Below are positions 1-31,066 of a stretch of DNA of 31,066 nt, in pieces; position 1 is the stretch's first letter; each line of letters starts with the position of its first letter. The notes beneath the pieces were generated by a model. The model did no database searches. It was not told the DNA's origin and saw only the letters and a list, made by a program, of their open reading frames with translations. The translations under genes were made by a program, and so were the position numbers. Source of the stretch: a virus. Location of the stretch: the IMG/VR virus record IMGVR_UViG_3300042458_000289, positions 1-31,066 of that record; one strand, 5' to 3'.

Positions 1-879
1 ATTTAAAGAACCACTTGTGTTTCCGCTTAAAGCAGTAATTCCTACTGTGGTATTTGTAGCAACTTGCCCTCCACCCAATCCAATTGGAATCGTGTTTAAC
101 CTCGCAGTACCATTAACGTCAAGCTTGAATCCTGCGTCTGTGGTGGTGTTGATTAGGACGTTGCCCGTTCCATTTATTCGCATTGCCTCTAATGGTGTTG
201 CTCCATTCGTGTTTGTGGCGTAAAAGAATATTTTTCCCGATGAGGTTGAGCCTTCCATACTAATTTGAGCAGACGCCTTTCCCGTGTTTGTAAATACACC
301 CGTTGAAGGATTTCTATTAACGGCTATTTGTAAGAAGTCGTCAAAGCTACCAAAATACGAACTATTAGTACTTCCCGTTGTATCTCTTATTGATATTGTA
401 GGTCTTAATGAATTTACCGATAATGCAGTCAAAGGCGTTGCACTTCCTATTCCAAGACGAGCATTCGTATTATCCCAAAACAAGTTCGCACTCTCCTGAA
501 CTACGTTACCCGTTCCCTCGAATAACACACGTCCAACAGTACCCGATGTGATTGCAGTCGTACCTATTGTGATTCCCGTAGATACCGTGAATGTTCTATC
601 TGCTGATAGGTCTTGTGTAGTTCCGTTTATTGTTAGGGTGCGAGTTGTTGGGACTTTACCACTTAACGCAGTATTTAAGTCAGTTTGTGCGGATAGTGTT
701 CCCGTGATAGTTCCCCATGCGGTAACCGATGGTGGGACCGATGCAATTATTTCAGCTCCAGTGATTGACTTGGTTACATAGCTACCACTCACCAATTCAG
801 ATATCTCCAATAAATCGGTTGATGCAAGGTTGGAACCTTTCGGATCCATCTGCGATATTTTCTTTGTTCTAAATGCCAT
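1..879 (-). CDS. Tail fibre protein B with YadA-like beta-roll (3' end beyond window)
   Basis: Open frame of 293 codons from ATG at 879 to the left edge, with no stop, so the C-terminus is missing. The N-terminal ~110 residues (start MAFRTKKISQMDPKG) look like a virion attachment domain and are shared in part with the fibre at the right edge. Residues ~115-125 read GRVLFEGTGNV, followed by a variable section, then the cassette DAGFKLDVNGTAR, then the start of a left-handed beta-roll (IGLGGGQVATNTTVG). Repeats of the form NTxVGxxAL..NTSG are known from YadA-type adhesin heads and from Bacteroidota phage fibres; a role in receptor binding is inferred. The gene lies directly downstream of terL (29-bp gap). 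A TAnnTTTG-like box (891-898) and the TTAATATATA element (881-890) precede the start. Confidence 0.85.
   Translation of the reverse strand, partial: MAFRTKKISQMDPKGSNLASTDLLEISELVSGSYVTKSITGAEIIASVPPSVTAWGTITGTLSAQTDLNTALSGKVPTTRTLTINGTTQDLSADRTFTVSTGITIGTTAITSGTVGRVLFEGTGNVVQESANLFWDNTNARLGIGSATPLTALSVNSLRPTISIRDTTGSTNSSYFGSFDDFLQIAVNRNPSTGVFTNTGKASAQISMEGSTSSGKIFFYATNTNGATPLEAMRINGTGNVLINTTTDAGFKLDVNGTARLNTIPIGLGGGQVATNTTVGITALSGNTSGSLN
100..167. repeat. 68-bp exact repeat shared by both tail fibres (copy in B)
   Basis: Identical to 30331-30398. On the minus strand it encodes the cassette NVLINTTTDAGFKLDVNGTAR, less its first residue. Sequence on both sides differs between the two fibres, so this is a conserved module inside otherwise different proteins, consistent with mosaic exchange by recombination. 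Confidence 0.9.
583..709. repeat. 127-bp exact repeat of the window's right end (copy in B)
   Basis: Every base matches 30940-31066, and the second copy stops exactly at the window end. Just before the repeat the two copies are similar but not identical. Both copies are in the same reading frame of tail-fibre genes. A length of 127 is a common assembly k-mer, so the match may mark the point where the graph closes a circular genome (inference). Confidence 0.9.
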
Positions 880-908: not shown

Positions 909-2060
909 TTAGAAGGCGAAGTATGAGTCATCGGTATAGTATTCCTTTCGGATGTAAGTACCGGCATATCGCACCGCATCCATGGCATCATCCCACAGCT
1001 TCACCGGCTCATCAGTGATTTGGTCGCCAATCTTCTTCCACTTATAATTCTCATACTCCTTCTTAATCCTGGACTCATCCTCACAGAACACGCCGAAGGT
1101 CTTGATGTTATCGATTCCCTTCTTGACCACCTTGTTGGCATTCTGCACATCGTATCCTGCGTTGTTCATCTCAGCAATTATCTCCGGTCGTGCGTAATCC
1201 GCTACAATGGTGATGTTCTTCTCCACTCCAAGTTGCTCACATTTCTCGATGAGATTGGTCGTGGTGAGGTAGCTCTCATAGATGACCGGCTCGATGTAGA
1301 TGTCATCCTCACACCAATACACTCGCATGAGAGCAGTGGGGTGATTATAACCGAAGTCAAGTCCATACACATAGTTGACGAACCTGGCAGGTCGATGCTT
1401 GATGAATGTCCAATTGGAATATATGTTGCTCTTGCTGATTGCCTTCTCACCGAGTGCGTAGATTTGATACAGGGACTCATCCGTTCGCTTGAGGTCCTCG
1501 ATTTGCCTACGGATGGAATCAGGCAGGAATGGATTGTCGCGGTACGTTGATTTGATGAGGATGCTCTCCTCCTTAGGTAGCTCATACAACCAGGATGCCG
1601 ATTCACTTGGATTGTAATCGAATATGAGCTTCCATTCAGTTCTCATGTTGAGCTGAGTGAAGTCATCATAGAAAAGCTCATTGGCCTCATTACACCATGC
1701 GAGGTCGCGTTTCCTTCCTCGTATCTTTTGCTCATCATCCACACTGAAGAACTCCACAATGCTTCCATTCGGGAATGTGTAGATGTGCTCGGACTTGTTG
1801 TGGGAGTTGACATCATACAAGTCCATCATCTTCATGATCTCAAGGAAATCTCGCATGACTGTTGCTCTGAGTGCTGGGAATGTTTTTCGGATAATAGAGG
1901 TAACCTTCCCCCTATTTTGGAGAGAGTAGACAATTATCATTTGACAAAGAGAATAGGTCTTTGATGACCTTGATCCTCCCTCATTTATTATAAACCGTAT
2001 ATCCTTATCCTGGAGAGCTTCGTAGTTCTTCTCAAAGATAACGGTGCTATTTATTTCCAT
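909..2060 (-). CDS. terL: Terminase large subunit (PBSX/Terminase_3 type)
   Basis: ATP-driven DNA packaging motor with C-terminal nuclease, 383 aa, a usual length for this family. Walker A is GGSRSSKT (residues 28-35); the Walker B region is DLAWCNEANE (119-128) with N-E in place of the usual acidic pair; the coupling motif is FDYNPS (147-152). The RNase H-like nuclease shows D235 in LDFGYNHPT, D288 in ADYARPE and acidic residues in WDDAMDAVRYA (356-366). It follows TerS, separated by a 53-aa ORF that overlaps both. Families of this type usually package by headful, which would fit a circularly permuted genome (inference). Confidence 0.95.
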   Translation of the reverse strand: MEINSTVIFEKNYEALQDKDIRFIINEGGSRSSKTYSLCQMIIVYSLQNRGKVTSIIRKTFPALRATVMRDFLEIMKMMDLYDVNSHNKSEHIYTFPNGSIVEFFSVDDEQKIRGRKRDLAWCNEANELFYDDFTQLNMRTEWKLIFDYNPSESASWLYELPKEESILIKSTYRDNPFLPDSIRRQIEDLKRTDESLYQIYALGEKAISKSNIYSNWTFIKHRPARFVNYVYGLDFGYNHPTALMRVYWCEDDIYIEPVIYESYLTTTNLIEKCEQLGVEKNITIVADYARPEIIAEMNNAGYDVQNANKVVKKGIDNIKTFGVFCEDESRIKKEYENYKWKKIGDQITDEPVKLWDDAMDAVRYAGTYIRKEYYTDDSYFAF

Positions 2061-4867: not shown

Positions 4868-4970
4868 AGAAAGCTCCCTTAAATATCTGCGATGCGATGG
4901 CGGTGCCAACCAATGTCAATGATATCGCCATGACTATAAGAGTGATGAGTGCGCATATCTTCTCTTTCAT
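4866..4970 (-). CDS. 34-aa membrane peptide
   Basis: ATG at 4970 lies in the ATGA overlap with the upstream gene and inside the repeated junction sequence. The product, MKEKICALITLIVMAISLTL and 14 more residues, has one hydrophobic segment (about 5-27) and could be a single-pass membrane peptide. The junction-linked start argues that it is translated. Function unknown. Confidence 0.5.
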   Translation of the reverse strand: MKEKICALITLIVMAISLTLVGTAIASQIFKGAF

Positions 4971-4980
4971 TGTTCTTGTT
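4967..4980 (-). repeat. Junction repeat AACAAGAACAATGA, copy 1
   Basis: On the minus strand the core encodes the final QEQ codons and the TGA of the 117-aa gene and supplies the ATG of the 34-aa gene. Six copies of this core occur in 1.1 kb, each at a gene junction. Confidence 0.85.
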
Positions 4981-5320
4981 GTAAAATATCAAGTTCTTTT
5001 CTTACTGATTTCCAATACAATCTATCTTCGGGGTAGTGTAGGCAATCACTTTCAATAATTGTATCTACTGCTACTTGTGCTGATAATATAGCGTTATCAC
5101 ATTCTCTGCAACTAAAATTAAATTTATCTACTAATTCTTTTGCTTGTTCTTTTGTTGTTGATTGTTTCTTTTTCATTTTATGTTTGTTTAATTGTTCGGG
5201 TTCACAATTAGAAATAATACTATTTATTGCTTCTGCGTGACAATCTTCTGCGCTTACGCAACATTCATCATCACATTGTGTTTTGGTTTGTGGACATATA
5301 TATACTATATCTTCTTTCAT
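4967..5320 (-). CDS. Cysteine-rich hypothetical protein
   Basis: 117 aa. The N-terminus is cysteine-rich (ICPQTKTQCDDECCVSAEDC, then SNCEPE), with another CREC motif at about 71-74 and a late C near 95. Several CxxC-like pairs suggest zinc binding, but no named fold is clear. It ends LQQEQ, as do its upstream neighbours, because the last codons lie in the junction repeat. AT-rich codon use, like the rest of this small-gene cassette. Function unknown. Confidence 0.65.
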   Translation of the reverse strand: MKEDIVYICPQTKTQCDDECCVSAEDCHAEAINSIISNCEPEQLNKHKMKKKQSTTKEQAKELVDKFNFSCRECDNAILSAQVAVDTIIESDCLHYPEDRLYWKSVRKELDILQQEQ

Positions 5321-5330
5321 TGTTCTTGTT
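5317..5330 (-). repeat. Junction repeat AACAAGAACAATGA, copy 2
   Basis: At the join between the 52-aa and 117-aa genes; the extended match is AAACAACAAGAACAATGA, identical with copies 3, 4 and 6. Confidence 0.85.
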
Positions 5331-5475
5331 GTTTAAGTTCTTCTAATTCTTGTTCTTTTTGTAATTTTAATTCTTGTAGGCCTTCAATAACTTTTTTCAA
5401 ACGCCTAATCTCAAATTCTTCAAATGTTAAAGTATTATCAAAATATTCAATGCTAAGAGATTCTATTATTTTCAT
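5317..5475 (-). CDS. Short coiled-coil protein
   Basis: 52 aa from ATG at 5475, sharing ATGA with the upstream stop. Sequence MKIIESLSIEYFDNTLTFEE, then a long charged helix (RRLKKVIEGLQELKLQKEQE) and the end LEELKQQEQ. Heptad-like leucines suggest a coiled coil, possibly dimeric. Same junction-repeat start and end as its neighbours. Function unknown. Confidence 0.6.
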   Translation of the reverse strand: MKIIESLSIEYFDNTLTFEEFEIRRLKKVIEGLQELKLQKEQELEELKQQEQ

Positions 5476-5485
5476 TGTTCTTGTT
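5472..5485 (-). repeat. Junction repeat AACAAGAACAATGA, copy 3
   Basis: At the join between the 71-aa and 52-aa genes; the extended match TTTAAACAACAAGAACAATG also occurs in copy 4. Confidence 0.85.
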
Positions 5486-5687
5486 GTTTAAATATTTTGT
5501 TAAATTTTTCAAATTCTAATTCACAATATTCTTTCCCAAATTCAATAGGAGTCATTCTATATGCTATTGAAAATATAGATTTTTCCCGTTCCTTCTCCAT
5601 TTCTTTGGCTTCTGCTAATTCATTAGAGTATTTACAAACATCTTCTAAAGACATTTTCTCAATTAGTTGGTCTACTGCTGTTTTCAT
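5472..5687 (-). CDS. Hypothetical helical protein
   Basis: 71 aa, largely helical and charged (EDVCKYSNELAEAKEMEKER), ending FNKIFKQQEQ. It shares the internal stretch KEMEKE-like with the 82-aa protein at 8202-8450 (KAKEMERKQKLERQ), which may mean the two are distant relatives. Start and stop both lie in copies of the junction repeat. Function unknown. Confidence 0.6.
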   Translation of the reverse strand: MKTAVDQLIEKMSLEDVCKYSNELAEAKEMEKEREKSIFSIAYRMTPIEFGKEYCELEFEKFNKIFKQQEQ

Positions 5688-5697
5688 TGTTCTTGTT
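5684..5697 (-). repeat. Junction repeat AACAAGAACAATGA, copy 4
   Basis: At the join between the 67-aa (5684-5887) and 71-aa (5472-5687) genes. The overlapping ATGA gives stop and start in four bases. Confidence 0.85.
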
Positions 5698-5887
5698 GTT
5701 TAAATTTGTCTAATTGCTCATCTGTAAATTTAATACCAAGAGCATCTTCAATTTGACTAATGGAAGTAGTCCATTTTTTAATAACAGAACCACCACCCCA
5801 AGGTTTTGCACCACAAATTCTTGTGTCATTTAGGTAAATAGAATCACCTTCTACACCATTTACTAATTCTAAAATTATATTTATCAT
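5684..5887 (-). CDS. Hypothetical protein
   Basis: 67 aa, MINIILELVNGVEGDSIYLN at the start, a glycine-rich PWGGGS turn near the middle, then a helix ending LDKFKQQEQ. Probably alpha/beta. It begins in one junction repeat and ends in another. A short stretch, WTTSISQIEDALG, resembles WSTSISQLEERVG in the sigma-like protein at 2858-3403, suggesting a shared segment. Function unknown. Confidence 0.6.
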   Translation of the reverse strand: MINIILELVNGVEGDSIYLNDTRICGAKPWGGGSVIKKWTTSISQIEDALGIKFTDEQLDKFKQQEQ

Positions 5888-5897
5888 TGTTCTTGTT
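5884..5897 (-). repeat. Junction repeat AACAAGAACAATGA, copy 5 (short form)
   Basis: This copy lacks one CAA unit (GATAAACAAGAACAATGA), so the upstream protein ends DKQEQ and not KQQEQ. Confidence 0.8.
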
Positions 5898-6099
5898 TAT
5901 CAATGTGAATTAAAAAACTTGTCTTCCGTTTTATTGTAGGAAACTGATTCAATAGCCATAAGGTCAACTCGTCTTTTTCTGAGTCATCAATGTGGAATTC
6001 TGCATAGGTATGCACCTTATGTCCTTGTAGGATTTCATCTTGTTGTAAATGCTGTGGAATATCCGACAACTTAATTACTGATTTTGTTATTCTTCTCAT
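5884..6099 (-). CDS. Hypothetical protein
   Basis: 71 aa starting MRRITKSVIKLSDIPQHLQQ and ending SFLIHIDKQEQ. The start at 6099 lies in the junction-repeat copy that follows a tiny reading frame (MITKQQEQ, 6096-6122). No recognised motif. It has the same AT-rich composition as the rest of the cassette. Confidence 0.6.
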   Translation of the reverse strand: MRRITKSVIKLSDIPQHLQQDEILQGHKVHTYAEFHIDDSEKDELTLWLLNQFPTIKRKTSFLIHIDKQEQ

Positions 6100-6109
6100 T
6101 GTTCTTGTT
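6096..6109 (-). repeat. Junction repeat AACAAGAACAATGA, copy 6
   Basis: It precedes the gene starting at 6099. No full gene ends here, only an 8-codon frame MITKQQEQ from ATG at 6122, which could be the stub of a deleted gene. Confidence 0.8.
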
Positions 6110-6154
6110 GTTTAGTTATCATTTCTATTTAGTTTATGTGGTAAAAATTGCCAC

Positions 6155-6337
6155 TTATCCTTTAAAGGTTTCATCATTATCTACCCACTCATCCACTATT
6201 TCAAGATTTCCACTAAAAGAATATCCAGTAGCTTTTAAAAGTCCTTCAATCATTTGTAAAGCTTCGTCTAGAGTTACATCGTTATGAGGTACTTCGTGGG
6301 TGATTTTGTGTTCGTATTGTTCTATCGTTATTTTCAT
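6155..6337 (-). CDS. Hypothetical protein
   Basis: 60 aa, MKITIEQYEHKITHEVPHND, then a helix (LDEALQMIEGLLKATGYSFS) and an acidic end (DEWVDNDETFKG). Small proteins with this pattern occur in many phages of Bacteroidota, of unknown role. Its ATG overlaps the stop of the exonuclease gene by four bases. Confidence 0.65.
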   Translation of the reverse strand: MKITIEQYEHKITHEVPHNDVTLDEALQMIEGLLKATGYSFSGNLEIVDEWVDNDETFKG

Positions 6338-6951
6338 TTCGCTTCCAATAATTTATAATACTCATTATAATACTCAGTACACAATTCCAATCTCTCAATC
6401 ATCTCCTTCTCCTTCTCCTCATCACGATCAAATGAAAGTACGGTGATTCTCTTCTCCGGTGCGATGTGGTCAACGCGGTGAATATCTAAGTTCTCCCACT
6501 CGTTCAGTAGCTCGTTGGATGTAGTTACCATGCAATAGATTAACTCTGCCTTAGGTTTGTCGTATAGCCTCATGTAAGCTCTCAACTGCCACTCATAGAT
6601 TGCATCATATCCATCCTCTGCCATCACTGGAAAGGTATCCAATGACCAGGATGTTTTGATATCGATGATTGAATCGTTGGTGATGATGTCTGCCTCACCG
6701 GTCATCAGCTCATCAACCATTCGCACGGTGTTCTTGACGTACCCCTCGAATCGCACGGTGTTAACTAGGTCGATTGAATCCTGCTCTTGCATTAATCCTT
6801 TTTGGATGTACTTATTGTTGATTTGACTGCGGTATCCGTAGAAGTTTTCCTTAGCAACTTGCTTGATGTAACTCTTCGCAGTTGCTCCCATTTCATTTTT
6901 ACCTCGGCCATTGGTCATCAACTTGCCGATGGAGGATGGATGCCACTTCAT
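6334..6951 (-). CDS. PD-(D/E)XK exonuclease (YqaJ / lambda-exonuclease-like)
   Basis: 205 aa. The motif order fits the YqaJ/RecB-like family: E56 in KGLMQEQDSI, D88 in GEADIIT, D97-x-K99 in IIDIKTS, and Q122 in EWQLRAYM. The fold degrades one strand of double-stranded DNA 5'-3' to give overhangs for annealing. It is next to the ERF annealing gene (4-bp overlap), the standard two-part phage recombination system. The length is short but in range for phage versions. The start MKWHPSSIGKLM carries the usual opening HxSSxxxLM-like segment. Confidence 0.85.
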   Translation of the reverse strand: MKWHPSSIGKLMTNGRGKNEMGATAKSYIKQVAKENFYGYRSQINNKYIQKGLMQEQDSIDLVNTVRFEGYVKNTVRMVDELMTGEADIITNDSIIDIKTSWSLDTFPVMAEDGYDAIYEWQLRAYMRLYDKPKAELIYCMVTTSNELLNEWENLDIHRVDHIAPEKRITVLSFDRDEEKEKEMIERLELCTEYYNEYYKLLEAK

Positions 6952-7469
6952 ACTTCTAATGCTTTAAGTTGTACCTCAGTCAATGTCCATTTCTCAATCA
7001 ATTGCTCCTTTGTGTACTTTCCTGCTTGAATGGATGCCACTGCGGATTCGAATCTCGCATTGTCCAACGCAGGTTTAACCGGTGCGACTGCAATCGATGC
7101 TGCCTTTCCATCATCATCCACTGCCTGAAGCGAAAGAAGTGATTGCAATGTACCTCTTCGGAAGTAAGTCACCGCACTCAATACCTTTTGTGGATCAGTA
7201 ATAATCGGTAAGGTCATGAATGACTCAACCATCTCACCCGAATCGATGTCAATGATTCTCGTCACCACATCATTCCCAACTATTGGCTGAAGTAGAATCA
7301 ATCCATTCTCCAATAGAATCGGCTCGACTGCGGTGAGCAGTGCATTGATGTCGGCATATGACTTTTTGAAATGTGGATTCGTAGCATTCTTTGCTACCTT
7401 TCCAATCTGCTGCTTAGCAGTGTGCAACTTTTGATACAGCGTTGCGACTGTTTTCGTGTTCTTTTCCAT
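6948..7469 (-). CDS. ERF-family single-strand annealing protein
   Basis: 173 aa. The N-terminal ~125 residues match ERF: LYQKLHTAKQQIGKVAKNAT, NPHFKKSYADINALLTAVEP, then SAVTYFRRGTLQSLLSLQAV and DDDGK. The C-terminal ~45 residues (EQLIEKWTLTEVQLKALEV) form a short helical tail. It anneals complementary strands made by the partner exonuclease downstream and may bind the SSB-like protein. The start at 7469 is preceded by AACACGCTAAATA, one copy of the ACGCT pre-start element. Confidence 0.85.
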   Translation of the reverse strand: MEKNTKTVATLYQKLHTAKQQIGKVAKNATNPHFKKSYADINALLTAVEPILLENGLILLQPIVGNDVVTRIIDIDSGEMVESFMTLPIITDPQKVLSAVTYFRRGTLQSLLSLQAVDDDGKAASIAVAPVKPALDNARFESAVASIQAGKYTKEQLIEKWTLTEVQLKALEV

Positions 7470-25165: not shown

Positions 25166-27854
25166 ATGTTCGGATTTCTAAGGGTGAATAGTTAAGCCTC
25201 CCATCGGTATGTTGATGGTTGGATGTTTTGGTTGTTCTCACTACCACATTGCCATCGGTGTTGATGTTTGCGGTTGCGAGGTAGTCGTGTTCAGTGTTTC
25301 CAATAGTTACAAAGGTAGTCAATGTATCCAATGGAATCAATGGAGTTCCAAGATACTCACCTTGAGCGGTGCGAGTCCAGGTGATTTGTCCGATTGTGTT
25401 GGAGAATTCAATCACTGTTGGTGCTGATGTACTTAGTTGATTGAGTAATGCAACATATCCTCTCGTTTGGAACGTGATTCCGTTGATTTGCGGAGTTATT
25501 ATTCCATCATCATTCAATACCTTATTGTCACCAATTACAATCCCTCTCAGCCCTGTTCCAACAATGTTGCCTGTACCCTTCACAATGACATCATCTCCAC
25601 TTAGATTCCCATTGGACTGAATGGATTTTGTCACAATGGTTGACTCAACTGCATCAACCGATGTGATTGGGGATGTTGGTGTTCCTGGCTTTGTTTGGAA
25701 TGGTGCAAATTCGATGTCCGTATCCACTGATATTAATTCAACTTTGGTTGGAGCTGATGTGTTCGCATCGTAGTCAACAACCTGATTGATGTTCCACCAT
25801 GAATTGTCGATGCGGATTTTGTCATTCAATAGCAATGTTTGGATGTCATTCTCCTTCAAATCGAAATATGCGGTGAGCATTTTACCGACATTGATTTGGT
25901 TGACTGTTCTTCTCCAATATGTATTGTAGAGGTTGTTTGATGTTAATGACTCAGGTGAATAATAATAGTAATCACAAGTACCAAAGTTGATGTCAAAGGT
26001 TGGATTGACTGCATCATTGAAATGGCCAATCATTGGATAAGTCGTGTTGTTGAATACTCCCGTTGTGCCATACTCAACCAATCCCCATGAGCCACAAGTT
26101 TGAACACCTCCATCGTAAAGGATACGGATGTTTGTCTTGGGAGCTTCACCATCCAGGATTGGAACATATCCATTGATTGAGTTGATGATCACTGGAGTTG
26201 GTGAGAAGATAAGCTCTTTGGTATCGGTGTCCTTCACATATTCATTGTCGAAGGTATACTCAATCTGCCCATATATCTCATCAGTCATTTGAGTGTATAC
26301 CACATTCGCTGAATCGGTATCCGCTTTGTATGTTAGCTTTAATTTCTTGTTAGTTACATCGGGAAGGAAGAGGAGATTCTGCTCTTTATCCTTCATCAAT
26401 TTGTAGGTCCAATCCTTTTCAGTTCCATTGTCATAAAACTCATCACGATGGCGAAGAGTTAATTTGTTAGGTTGGTCAGTATCTACCTCAGCATAGAGGT
26501 TATACATTTGGAAGATTGACTTGATGTAATCCGATTGCTTAATCTTCAATGGGATGTATTCGTTAATGGCTAATGTACCGCCAATCACCTGGACATTCTG
26601 CGTTGGAAGGATTCGGATTCGAAGTGAGTTAACTGTCAACACTACGTCAACCGGTTGAACTACTCCTGCACCAAAGAATGCACCGTATGTTTGATATATA
26701 CCAACCTCAAGTTGAACTGAATCACCCGTGTTGAGCTCTCCACTATTTGCTACATTCTGAGCCACGAACATTCCTCCGGTCTTTACTCCCGAATCCAATG
26801 TCAATCCACTTGTTGTAATGGTCGTGTTCACCGATACGGTTGATGATGGTGCGACATTACTCAACTGAGAAACATACGAACCAATGGAAGCTCTCATGCG
26901 AGGTCGAGTGACGAATGCTGCGTTTGAATTTATCACACTCATCCCTGAATTGTTATCCAAAAAGAGTGAGTAATCCATCTCATACATCATCGTGTATCCT
27001 TGAGCTGAATTTAGTGAGGTATCGAATGGAACAGTGAACACTCCCGTTGTTGGATTGAATGATGCTTGAAGGTCAGTTATCTCAGTCCATCCCGTTGCAT
27101 TGTCAAAGTTGCCATATGATTGAACTGATGAAGTCACATCGAATGGAGTGGTGATTTCTGCCTCAACCAAGTAATCCTCAGTGTCAAATGTATTGGCATC
27201 CCCATTGTATGGGATAAGTAATTTGTCGAAATGGGAGGAACTCAATCCCGTCCATTCGTATGTGAATCCTGCATTCGAGAATATGCGGTCAAAGTATTGT
27301 TTGGCGTATATAGCAGGTTTAAATTGTCGCACCTGGTACTGATTGCTTCCGGTAGATGAATACGGGAACACATATTTGAATCCATCGGTGATGGTATTGT
27401 CAAACGATGCGATGATATCTGCAGCAGTGAATGTGTGATTCAAATCACTGAAATCCAAATCAGTCAATTCCTTGTTGGTGATCGCGGTGTAAAATTCGCA
27501 TTGAGTATCTTTCACCAGGACATCATACTCAACCATCTGCTCATGTGCATCGGTCATCTGAGATTTGCGAACATTGACCAACTGAAGCAATGCATCCTCC
27601 ATGATTGGCACATCGTTCTGAAGTACCGTGCATTTCGTGATGGTGTTGATGTTGAATGTACCCTCCTCAATATTTACATCGTAATGGTGTCCAAGGAGGT
27701 TGTGGTTGTTCTTGCTTCCAACCAATGTGATTGTCTTGGAGAACGTACCGGTACGCTTTGTAAGGTCACGGATATCACCGATTGAGAAGTTCAATGGGAA
27801 TGCAGTACCTTCCTTTACGTCAAGATAGCCGGTTGATAGTTGAATTCTAACCAT
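25158..27854 (-). CDS. Large tail tip/baseplate protein
   Basis: 898 aa, mostly beta. It starts MVRIQLSTGYLDVKEGTAFP then NFSIGDIRDLTKRTGTFSKT, a pattern seen in Bacteroidota siphophage tail tip proteins of unassigned family. A middle region (RNAGFTYEWTG-like at ~195, LRHRDEFYDNG at ~470) resembles tail hub proteins, and the C-terminus (~790-898) is a repeated, threonine-rich beta section with GTGNIVGTGLRGIVIG. Placed directly after the 489-aa tail gene and before the tape measure gene, where hub or distal tail proteins lie. The exact role is unknown. Confidence 0.65.
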   Translation of the reverse strand: MVRIQLSTGYLDVKEGTAFPLNFSIGDIRDLTKRTGTFSKTITLVGSKNNHNLLGHHYDVNIEEGTFNINTITKCTVLQNDVPIMEDALLQLVNVRKSQMTDAHEQMVEYDVLVKDTQCEFYTAITNKELTDLDFSDLNHTFTAADIIASFDNTITDGFKYVFPYSSTGSNQYQVRQFKPAIYAKQYFDRIFSNAGFTYEWTGLSSSHFDKLLIPYNGDANTFDTEDYLVEAEITTPFDVTSSVQSYGNFDNATGWTEITDLQASFNPTTGVFTVPFDTSLNSAQGYTMMYEMDYSLFLDNNSGMSVINSNAAFVTRPRMRASIGSYVSQLSNVAPSSTVSVNTTITTSGLTLDSGVKTGGMFVAQNVANSGELNTGDSVQLEVGIYQTYGAFFGAGVVQPVDVVLTVNSLRIRILPTQNVQVIGGTLAINEYIPLKIKQSDYIKSIFQMYNLYAEVDTDQPNKLTLRHRDEFYDNGTEKDWTYKLMKDKEQNLLFLPDVTNKKLKLTYKADTDSANVVYTQMTDEIYGQIEYTFDNEYVKDTDTKELIFSPTPVIINSINGYVPILDGEAPKTNIRILYDGGVQTCGSWGLVEYGTTGVFNNTTYPMIGHFNDAVNPTFDINFGTCDYYYYSPESLTSNNLYNTYWRRTVNQINVGKMLTAYFDLKENDIQTLLLNDKIRIDNSWWNINQVVDYDANTSAPTKVELISVDTDIEFAPFQTKPGTPTSPITSVDAVESTIVTKSIQSNGNLSGDDVIVKGTGNIVGTGLRGIVIGDNKVLNDDGIITPQINGITFQTRGYVALLNQLSTSAPTVIEFSNTIGQITWTRTAQGEYLGTPLIPLDTLTTFVTIGNTEHDYLATANINTDGNVVVRTTKTSNHQHTDGRLNYSPLEIRTYE

Positions 27855-29316
27855 TGATATTGTCTTGATTTGATAATTTGATGGTAATGCTTTGCTTGAT
27901 TAGATTCTTGTTGCGTTGTTGGTATACCTCGTATGCGTTGTTCTGCACGATGCATGGTTGATATGCGGTTGACTCAGCTATATGCACCGGACATCCATCC
28001 TCTCCAATGATTGGAAGACCTTCCTCAGTGGTGTTGTACTGCACAATCTTCACGAATGTCTGAGGTGATGTCAAGAGCTCTTCGAAGTATTGCCCTGCAC
28101 TCTCTTCCATCCAATTGGTATTAAGGTCAAATGACTTGGTCACGTTGATGTTGGACTGCATGAATCCCATGTCCTCAGTGCGGTAGTTCCATGATGCTCC
28201 ACTCACATATCCTTCGACATCCTTGTTGAATATCTCGCGAGTGATTTCTCCTCTCTCATATGATTTCAATTGGAATGCGAATGATGAGTATGAGCCTAAT
28301 CGGTCAAGGAAGAGCATATGATACTCAGAGATGGTCGTTCTCCTGTCCAGGTTGATTCGGTACTTTTTCGAATCGATGCCTAATGCAGTGCGATACCAAA
28401 CATCATAATGAGTTACCGTGTTGCTGATAAGGTCACCCGTTCCAACCAAGACACCGAAGTTATTCGGACCAACAGGAACTTGAGATATCTCATCTGCGTT
28501 GTTAATGTCTTTGTAGAACGAAGCTCCAAGGCTATTAACAAAAATAATGCGGTCATGTCCTTTTGGACTCCAAAGATTCAAATATAAATCCTGACCTAAT
28601 GTGCAACTGAACTCTTGAGGTTGATTCGTTAACCAATAGCTATCTGCGAAGGATAGCTTATAATCTGAGTTATCATAGACACTCCAATCCAACCATCTGA
28701 ATGCTCCATTAAACACAACGTAATCCTCAAAGTTAGTGACGTTTAACGTAATCAATTTTCGGTTATCAGCGTAACAAACATCTCCATTTATTGTTACATC
28801 GGTGATGGAGCTGAATAGCACGTTGACTGTGAAGTTAGATCCCGTTGCACTGAGCACGGTGTGAAGGCCTTCCAACTGAGGATTCGCCACACCACCATCT
28901 GCTTGTGTGATGACTACCTGGTCACCAACCGCGAATGTGTTGGTCACGTTTATTCTTGCATTCCCTCCATTGTTGGTGATGTTGGAAGTCCATGAGTATT
29001 CAGCCAATTGCTCCTCTCCGACTTTGACATCGTAAAGGTATCTCGAATTCGGTGCGTTGTACCATGATGTGCTCAGCGTGTTGAGGTCCCATGATACTTG
29101 TGTTTGAAGTAGTTTGGATAAATCAATCTCACCATATCCATCAACGTAGGTTGGGAGCACTTTATACTCCGCAATCTTGGTTGCAGTTCCTGCCTCGAAT
29201 ACTTGGAATATGTATTTGAATCCAGTGTTGTTCTTGTTGGTTGAATCAACGATGAACTTCAAAGGATTGTATGCTGGACTGAATGCCTGAGGTGATGCTA
29301 TGGTTGATTGACTCAT
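27847..29316 (-). CDS. Tail tip/distal tail protein
   Basis: 489 aa, beta-rich, MSQSTIASPQAFSPAYNPLK at the start. Central RINVTNTFAVGDQVVITQAD is a small beta insertion, and the end EVYQQRNKNLIKQSITIKLS is a conserved-looking closing motif. It overlaps the larger tail protein by eight bases and is coupled to the 41-aa ORF upstream by an ATGA overlap. In Bacteroidota phages paired proteins of this type sit between fibre and tape measure genes and are thought to build the tail tip; this is from gene order and not a known family. Confidence 0.6.
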   Translation of the reverse strand: MSQSTIASPQAFSPAYNPLKFIVDSTNKNNTGFKYIFQVFEAGTATKIAEYKVLPTYVDGYGEIDLSKLLQTQVSWDLNTLSTSWYNAPNSRYLYDVKVGEEQLAEYSWTSNITNNGGNARINVTNTFAVGDQVVITQADGGVANPQLEGLHTVLSATGSNFTVNVLFSSITDVTINGDVCYADNRKLITLNVTNFEDYVVFNGAFRWLDWSVYDNSDYKLSFADSYWLTNQPQEFSCTLGQDLYLNLWSPKGHDRIIFVNSLGASFYKDINNADEISQVPVGPNNFGVLVGTGDLISNTVTHYDVWYRTALGIDSKKYRINLDRRTTISEYHMLFLDRLGSYSSFAFQLKSYERGEITREIFNKDVEGYVSGASWNYRTEDMGFMQSNINVTKSFDLNTNWMEESAGQYFEELLTSPQTFVKIVQYNTTEEGLPIIGEDGCPVHIAESTAYQPCIVQNNAYEVYQQRNKNLIKQSITIKLSNQDNING

Positions 29317-29449: not shown

Positions 29450-29716
29450 TTAGATGATTACTACTCCGATAGCTTCAGCGACGTATTCATTTACGACTGA
29501 ATTATCTTGTCCCCAAGATGCGAATTCTTTTTCAGTTAGCGTGTAATTGCCTTGTGAAAGTTGAATGCCTTCTTCGGTTAGTAATTGCCAATACGTTGTG
29601 CAAGTTGTTGCAGTTGTTTCGAAGTTCAATACAAGTACGCTTAATCGTGTTGCAGTACCTTCGTTAAGTGGATAGACGATTGGTTGAATCGCTACTCCGT
29701 TTGTTTGTGTTTCCAT
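29450..29716 (-). CDS. Small fibre-associated protein
   Basis: 88 aa from ATG at 29716; a TTG at 29746 would overlap the fibre gene, and the ATG leaves a 5-bp gap and is preferred. METQTNGVAIQPIVYPLNEG, then LNFETTATTCTTYWQLLTEE, GNYTLTEKEFASWGQDNS and a hydrophobic end. Proteins with this LNEGTAT..YW.L..E....L..G.Y.LT..EF..W pattern occur next to tail fibre genes in Bacteroidota phages. A fibre chaperone or tail tip part is possible. Confidence 0.65.
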   Translation of the reverse strand: METQTNGVAIQPIVYPLNEGTATRLSVLVLNFETTATTCTTYWQLLTEEGIQLSQGNYTLTEKEFASWGQDNSVVNEYVAEAIGVVII

Positions 29717-29721
29717 ATTAT

Positions 29722-31066
29722 TTAAATTGATGTTACTACTTCCCAACCCGATGCACCACCAACTACTAACTTACTCAATGTACTATCGTAAATTAAAGCA
29801 CCTTTGACGTATGTTGGTCGTGAACCCGTTGCGTATTGTTGTAAGTTTACTCTACCTCTTAAAATTGTATCTACTATTGAAGTATTTCCAAGTGTTGCGG
29901 TGTTACTTCCCGCACCGATTGCATTGTGTCCAATTACTATTTGATTCGTTTGTGAATTGGCTAATGGTCTTGCGGACATCCCCAAAAACACGGAGTTATC
30001 AGAGCTAGTTAAATTAGTTACTCCATCGGAAATATATCTACCCGCTTCCGCTCCAACCGCAGTATTTAAACTACCACTTGTAATATTTCTTAAACTTGAA
30101 TTACCTACACCCGTATTGTTTGTTCCATTAGTACCACCTAAAGAACTAAATCCAATGGCAGTATTTGCACTTCCACTTGTTAAAGCATTTAAAGTAGAAG
30201 AGCCAACCGCAGTATTTGAAGTACCCGATGAATTATTTATTAAAGCTGCTAATCCTATTGCTACACTATTTGTGTTTGCACCGCCTCCGAGTCCTACGGT
30301 CATACCTTGAATAGTCGCTTGACCTACCACCCTCGCAGTACCATTAACGTCAAGCTTGAATCCTGCGTCTGTGGTGGTGTTGATTAGGACGTTGCCCGCT
30401 AAATAGGTGGATGTTGTTGATGAGTTACCTATCCAAGTTCTGTTTGATACGTTGTTAACTACTCCCGTACTCCAATTACCAATAAAAATATTGGAACTTC
30501 CCGTTGTATTAACATTTCCTCCACCTTCTCCAAATGCAATGTTTGCAGTTCCCGAAGTATTATTTTCCATTGCACTATTTCCGATTGCAATGTTACTTGC
30601 TCCCGTTGTTGACCTTAATGCCTTTCTTCCAAATGCACAATTTCCCGAACCCGTTGAATTTAGTAAAAGTGTTTCAAATCCAAATGCCGTGTTTGATACT
30701 CCCGTTGTGTTGGCGTTTAATGCAGTAACTCCGACTGCGGTGTTTGTCGCTCCTTGCCCTCCACCTAATCCAATGTACAAAGTATTTATAACTGCATCAC
30801 CGATTATTTGAAATCTATTCGTGGAATTGTTCCACGTGATGTTAGCTGATTCTTGAACTACATTTCCCGTACCTTCAAACAACACACGTCCAACAGTACC
30901 CGAAGTGATTGCAGTCGTACCGATTGTGATTCCCGTGCTTACCGTGAATGTTCTATCTGCTGATAGGTCTTGTGTAGTTCCGTTTATTGTTAGGGTGCGA
31001 GTTGTTGGGACTTTACCACTTAACGCAGTATTTAAGTCAGTTTGTGCGGATAGTGTTCCCGTGATA
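29722..31066 (-). CDS. Tail fibre protein A with two beta-roll domains (5' end beyond window)
   Basis: 447 codons plus a stop are in the window and the frame stays open to the right edge, so the true start is outside. The first visible part repeats the N-terminal domain of fibre B in the same frame; if it shares all of it, the whole protein would be ~504 aa. Then a beta-roll with NTAVGxxAL..TTGxxNxAFG repeats, the DAGFKLDVNGTAR cassette, a second beta-roll (NTNSVAIGLAAL..TSGSANTAIG) and a C-terminal tip YDSTLSKLVVGGASGWEVV. YadA-like rolls bind surface ligands in other systems. A V in GRVLFEG is GTG (30885) and is an internal codon, not the start. Confidence 0.85.
   Translation of the reverse strand, partial: ITGTLSAQTDLNTALSGKVPTTRTLTINGTTQDLSADRTFTVSTGITIGTTAITSGTVGRVLFEGTGNVVQESANITWNNSTNRFQIIGDAVINTLYIGLGGGQGATNTAVGVTALNANTTGVSNTAFGFETLLLNSTGSGNCAFGRKALRSTTGASNIAIGNSAMENNTSGTANIAFGEGGGNVNTTGSSNIFIGNWSTGVVNNVSNRTWIGNSSTTSTYLAGNVLINTTTDAGFKLDVNGTARVVGQATIQGMTVGLGGGANTNSVAIGLAALINNSSGTSNTAVGSSTLNALTSGSANTAIGFSSLGGTNGTNNTGVGNSSLRNITSGSLNTAVGAEAGRYISDGVTNLTSSDNSVFLGMSARPLANSQTNQIVIGHNAIGAGSNTATLGNTSIVDTILRGRVNLQQYATGSRPTYVKGALIYDSTLSKLVVGGASGWEVVTSI
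30331..30398. repeat. 68-bp exact repeat shared by both tail fibres (copy in A)
   Basis: Identical to 100-167. Encodes the DAGFKLDVNGTAR cassette that joins two different beta-roll modules in fibre A. Confidence 0.9.
30940..31066. repeat. 127-bp exact repeat at the right end (copy in A)
   Basis: Identical to 583-709 and ends with the window. Upstream of 30940 the two copies differ at several positions, so this is a real paralogue or allele boundary, not simple terminal redundancy. Confidence 0.9.

Follow-up and report, generated by a model that had tools for sequence, protein, structure and literature searches.

A metagenomic phage contig read as a circular map with a stub of a second tail fibre allele

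We analyzed the viral record IMGVR_UViG_3300042458_000289 over its whole stretch of 31,066 nucleotides (the window) and found that, although classed as linear in IMG/VR, it is very probably a circular phage map of 30,357 bp plus a stub, 582 nt long, that belongs to a second allele of the fibre. The two alleles, A and B, stand at opposite ends of the window; they have a stretch in common on the anchor side but carry different bodies. The best explanation of the whole, and one that we hold with good confidence, combines a circle and a variant stub with a single fibre locus whose bodies are exchanged by recombination. A circular genome with one fibre locus and alternative bodies in the population had been proposed in the initial annotation, and the proposal is now well supported by end-repeat circles, by the single fibre behind terL and by contigs of the same stub-plus-circle shape among the relatives.

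The contig ends in a block that it had already passed. The terminal copy at 30940–31066 and the inner copy at 583–709, where alleles A and B merge in the assembly graph, are both on the minus strand, 100% identical over 127 nt and in the same codon phase. To the left, the match is limited by A at 582 vs. T at 30939, with no extension on the divergent side; to the right, its limit is the last base of the contig (31066). Outside the exact match the identity is lower: the diverging edges of the shared region, 469–582 in fibre B and 30826–30939 in fibre A (both minus strand), differ at 24 of 114 nt (79% identity), and the 241-nt block including the exact match is 90% identical overall. The whole window contains only three exact direct repeats of at least 25 nt, this block and a 68-nt block among them, and the 127-nt identity is therefore far beyond chance. 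The repeat and its preserved phase had been noted before and proved correct, the match being exactly 127 nt and maximal on the divergent side. A second fibre had also been said to run from 30885; the frame does continue to 31066, but 30885 only marks where the first GTG falls in an ORF with an open end.

The length of the match is explained by the assembly. We read both ends in 20 near-full-length relatives, found via TerL, and observed that a contig end takes part in an exact match of 127 nt in eight of them (G001, G004, G013, G014, G015, G020, G021 and G026). In four (G004, G013, G015 and G021), the two copies lay at the outermost ends of the contig, and these ends fell at map positions with no relation to one another (near p113, p303 and p181), as expected of a circular template after k-mer assembly, and we accordingly read these contigs as circles. 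JGI assemblies use k values up to 127. For contigs from circular templates, the authors of CheckV described k-mer-length repeats of 55, 77 and 99 nt (PMC8116208). Given the end matches in the relatives, the CheckV report and general knowledge of such assemblies, 127 is the k-mer size of the assembler and without biological meaning; the biology sits in the branch point. A biological meaning of the length was dropped for the same recurrence at contig ends. The earlier description of the match was right about its reality and had overlooked the k-mer origin of its length.

With positions 1–709 (the stub and the inner block) taken off, the window closes as a circle of the size given above. The N-terminal anchor (MAFRTKKISQMDPKG...) is encoded at 710–879 (minus strand), directly after the terminase large-subunit gene terL (909–2060, minus strand; phrog_2, E 1e-38), and is in frame with fibre A: joined across the contig ends, the two give 1515 nt with no internal stop and a protein of 504 aa, a size within the range of the relatives. 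Behind their terL, the relatives carry one fibre each, with the same start peptide, MAFRT(K/Q)KISQM. On the other side of the locus are p98 (29450–29746, minus strand), a small protein whose gene comes immediately after the fibre and is conserved next to it in many relatives, and p489 (27847–29316, minus strand), taken from the gene order as the downstream anchor of the locus. The order in the relatives, terL–fibre–p98–p489–p898, agrees with the joined ends of the window; the small ORFs in their loci come from mechanical segmentation and are uncurated. A k-mer-length repeat that is maximal on the divergent side, together with the gene order of the relatives, is the pattern expected of a circular, k-mer-closed contig with a variant branch.

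Both alleles resemble phage tail proteins. Fibre B is an open frame of 293 aa at 1–879 (minus strand) with an open C terminus, containing the anchor domain and the 5' portion of an alternative body, which is truncated where the contig begins; beyond the merging node it is visible for 582 nt only, and its residues 49–153 match the tail protein phrog_25379 (E 5.5e-5). The body of fibre A occupies 29722–31066 (minus strand), has 447 aa and an open N terminus, and is followed by p98; it matches phrog_6002 (virion structural, E 2e-34) and phrog_4636 (tail spike, E 1e-25). The fibre also has partial matches to tail proteins of Flavobacterium and other phages. Two arrays of 16/17-aa repeats (N-x-A-x-G), the first at 30495–30744 and the second at 30018–30216 (both minus strand), flank a seam block in fibre A, the second array following it. 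A conserved N-terminal anchor, a variable body and similarity to known tail fibre and spike proteins characterize the gene, and on this sequence evidence we regard its product as a putative receptor-binding protein of the modular type. An AlphaFold2 model of fibre A (pLDDT 57) gave no PDB match at E ≤ 0.001; the trimeric adhesin CbpF, in the top row at E 0.12, was too weak to be accepted as a structural relative.

A k-mer-length end match would also arise if one genome carried two tandem fibre genes and the repeat of their shared start broke the assembly, as had been suggested for this contig, and some phages, such as K1-5, do have two fibre genes. We consider this arrangement very unlikely here. 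The cassette is kept behind terL in 69 of 80 TerL relatives, and among these 69 no contig has two tandem copies of this fibre, nor does any relative have two copies between terL and p489. The anchor does match twice in G014 and in G020, which is accounted for by contigs that are chimeric or overlap themselves round a circle, and the single-allele circle is already as large as the circle-closing relatives (~28.8–29.7 kb).

Fibre genes are classical targets of DNA inversion and of diversity-generating retroelements, and either could in principle change a fibre in a programmed way; phase variation had been raised on seeing the two bodies. What separates A and B, however, is the replacement of the whole body, and the machinery of such switching was absent from the window. 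Among its 45 proteins, we found no reverse transcriptase, invertase (site-specific invertases included) or integrase families. The window contained no inverted repeats, no inverted 16-mer involving the fibre, no pair of template and variable near-repeats and no silent fibre body or cassette elsewhere. Programmed switching is thus a highly improbable source of the two alleles.

A more specific objection to two strains at one locus is that fibre B could come from a different phage lineage with which only part of the fibre gene is common, the graph then merging two phages. There is a precedent in G014 (IMGVR_UViG_3300034111_000131, L280 and L281; 33,482 nt), a chimera of two lineages in which a sister-lineage circle and a tail from a phage of the window's lineage, with two gene orders and two terL genes (76 and 86% identical to that of the window), meet at a single 127-mer that lies within the fibre gene. 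The seam block is also found, at 98% identity, in an unrelated contig with a different fibre N terminus (L278). Against this origin, B leads by way of the anchor into terL in the contig, and A and B grow more alike on the anchor side, which is what two fibres running on into one anchor would show; we judge the origin unlikely. The initial annotation had taken the anchor and terL to belong to fibre B, which cannot be read from the contig, the merged paths in G014 stemming from two lineages.

For the reading as a circle with a variant stub, G020 offers a counterpart, consisting of a circle and a variant terL–fibre stub that merge inside the fibre gene; after G020 and G014, the window is the third case of the stub-plus-circle shape. 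Contig ends are also concentrated at this locus. Of the 69 cassette-bearing relatives, 27 have a contig end no more than 2 kb downstream of terL, and 8 have one no more than 2 kb upstream (p = 0.0003, with contigs that are not fully independent). In the clade lacking a fibre there, 2 of 11 contigs end in this downstream stretch, and the excess relative to this clade alone is not significant (p = 0.31). The excess of contig ends behind terL fits a locus where strains differ.

The locus itself is not fixed in all relatives. In a sister clade with ~84% identical TerL (L064, L079, L284 and L285), p489 follows terL directly, and the members inspected have the fibre, and p98 where detected, after p149, indicating that the cassette has moved. 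Some relatives with 85–97% TerL identity (L019 in its terL–p489 interval; L023, L029, L030, L056 and L073) lack the single long fibre behind terL and have in its place either shorter ORFs, numbering two or three, or an unrelated cassette (MAIYNQSW..., MSLLDTASL...).

Within the bodies, identity is confined to short blocks. The seam block of fibre B (VLINTTTDAGFKLDVNGTAR; 100–167, minus strand) is 68 nt long and 100% identical to 30331–30398 (minus strand) in fibre A, where it occupies a different place in the gene. Compared pairwise, relatives with 93–95% identical terL DNA have fibre bodies that align in short blocks only, at shifting positions. The block encoding NVLINTTTDAGFKLDVNGTAR appeared in 60 distinct contexts at 47 loci, and across loci the nucleotide identity was 79% inside the 63-nt seam vs. 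30–39% in its flanks. Among pairs of seams from different loci encoding the same peptide, 24% were at least 95% identical in nucleotides vs. 0% in codon-shuffled controls; selection acting on the protein alone would not lead one to expect synonymous sites so nearly identical. In L278, with its unrelated fibre N terminus, the seam differed by one mismatch in 63 nt. Exact scans with the seam and with the anchor-side block recovered one further contig each, and the blocks are consequently widely shared yet rarely letter for letter. On this pattern, modules seem to be exchanged at the block, while recent common descent of the blocks, with no special role in recombination, is a possible alternative. 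We propose only tentatively, and with rather more doubt than belief, that the short stretches that encode NVLINTTTDAGFKLDVNGTAR, together with the adjacent ITIGTTAITSGTVGRVLFE segment, serve as DNA-level recombination seams, at which fibre bodies are cut and rejoined across separate environmental phage lineages that draw on a shared pool of receptor-binding modules.

Under the preferred explanation, the sample would hold at least two fibre versions at one locus between terL and p98/p489, with the anchor-side stretch in common and different receptor-binding bodies. Bodies A and B would merge at one 127-mer of a de Bruijn graph built with k = 127; the contig enters through B, rounds the circle and halts on re-entering the 127-mer through A, a path shown by its sequence and by the sister contigs. 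Phages circulating together may have swapped the bodies through mosaic homologous recombination, using short conserved seams, and this is the mechanism that we favour. Judged by gene content, likely agents would be the phage's own single-strand annealing recombinase of the ERF family (6948–7469, minus strand; PF04404, E 1e-16; phrog_2324, E 1e-32) and its partner exonuclease, encoded alongside (6334–6951, minus strand; phrog_5715, E 1.5e-58). On identical DNA and on DNA of 78% identity alike, the Erf/Exo pair of phage D3 performs as well as lambda Red in recombination (PMC3945230). The result would be host recognition varying at the level of strains; this effect on host range, like the agent and the timing of the exchange, we infer.

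The host is probably a member of Bacteroidota, the nearest named TerL relatives being Flavobacterium and Parabacteroides phages at ~32% identity; a search for TerL relatives in genome contigs, made for host assignment, found none. At 4967–6112 (minus strand), the 17-nt sequence AACAACAAGAACAATGA occurs six times with at most two mismatches (0.05 expected). Five copies lie at the overlapping stop and start (ATGA) of consecutive small ORFs, each preceding ORF closing with the same few residues (...EQ), and we liken the element to a start-associated repeat for small-gene cassettes. Exact copies were present in 34 of the 285 loci fetched, with up to five per locus, and the end repeat of G001 adjoins one of them (L088, 1833–1849).

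In practical terms, the end of a contig can itself mark receptor-binding variation. Assemblies of this phage group tend to halt at the fibre gene, since it is there that strains differ; rather than as fragments, records of this type can be taken as circles that carry variant stubs. Should the seam idea prove true, it would provide wild phages with a concrete way of exchanging their host-binding modules.

The case is a clean but ordinary one of tail fibre variation in a wild phage population, and variation of this kind is already known. As in the circular viral contigs of PMC8116208, the repeat length equals the assembler k-mer; unlike in those terminal repeats, the second copy lies 583 nt inside the contig, as the circle was entered via a variant branch. 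In a natural population of crAss-like phages, the variable genes include those for tail fibres (PMC6962324); the fibre described here likewise varies within a natural phage population, but by whole-body replacement, whereas the crAss-like variants are nonsynonymous point changes. Tailspikes are modular through horizontal transfer, and their conserved motifs have been proposed to aid recombination (PMC10408124). They share with our fibre an N-terminal anchor conserved in the phage group and an exchanged receptor-binding body; they differ in belonging to phages of Enterobacteriaceae, whereas our phage probably infects Bacteroidota and has many small modules per fibre. The distal tail fibre adhesins of T-even phages, going by the account of Tetart et al. 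1998 cited in PMC6027323, are swapped at conserved motifs. As that account has it, short conserved motifs in the fibre or adhesin gene flank exchanged specificity segments, much as in the present gene, although here the protein family and the motif are others and recombination is deduced from metagenome contigs.
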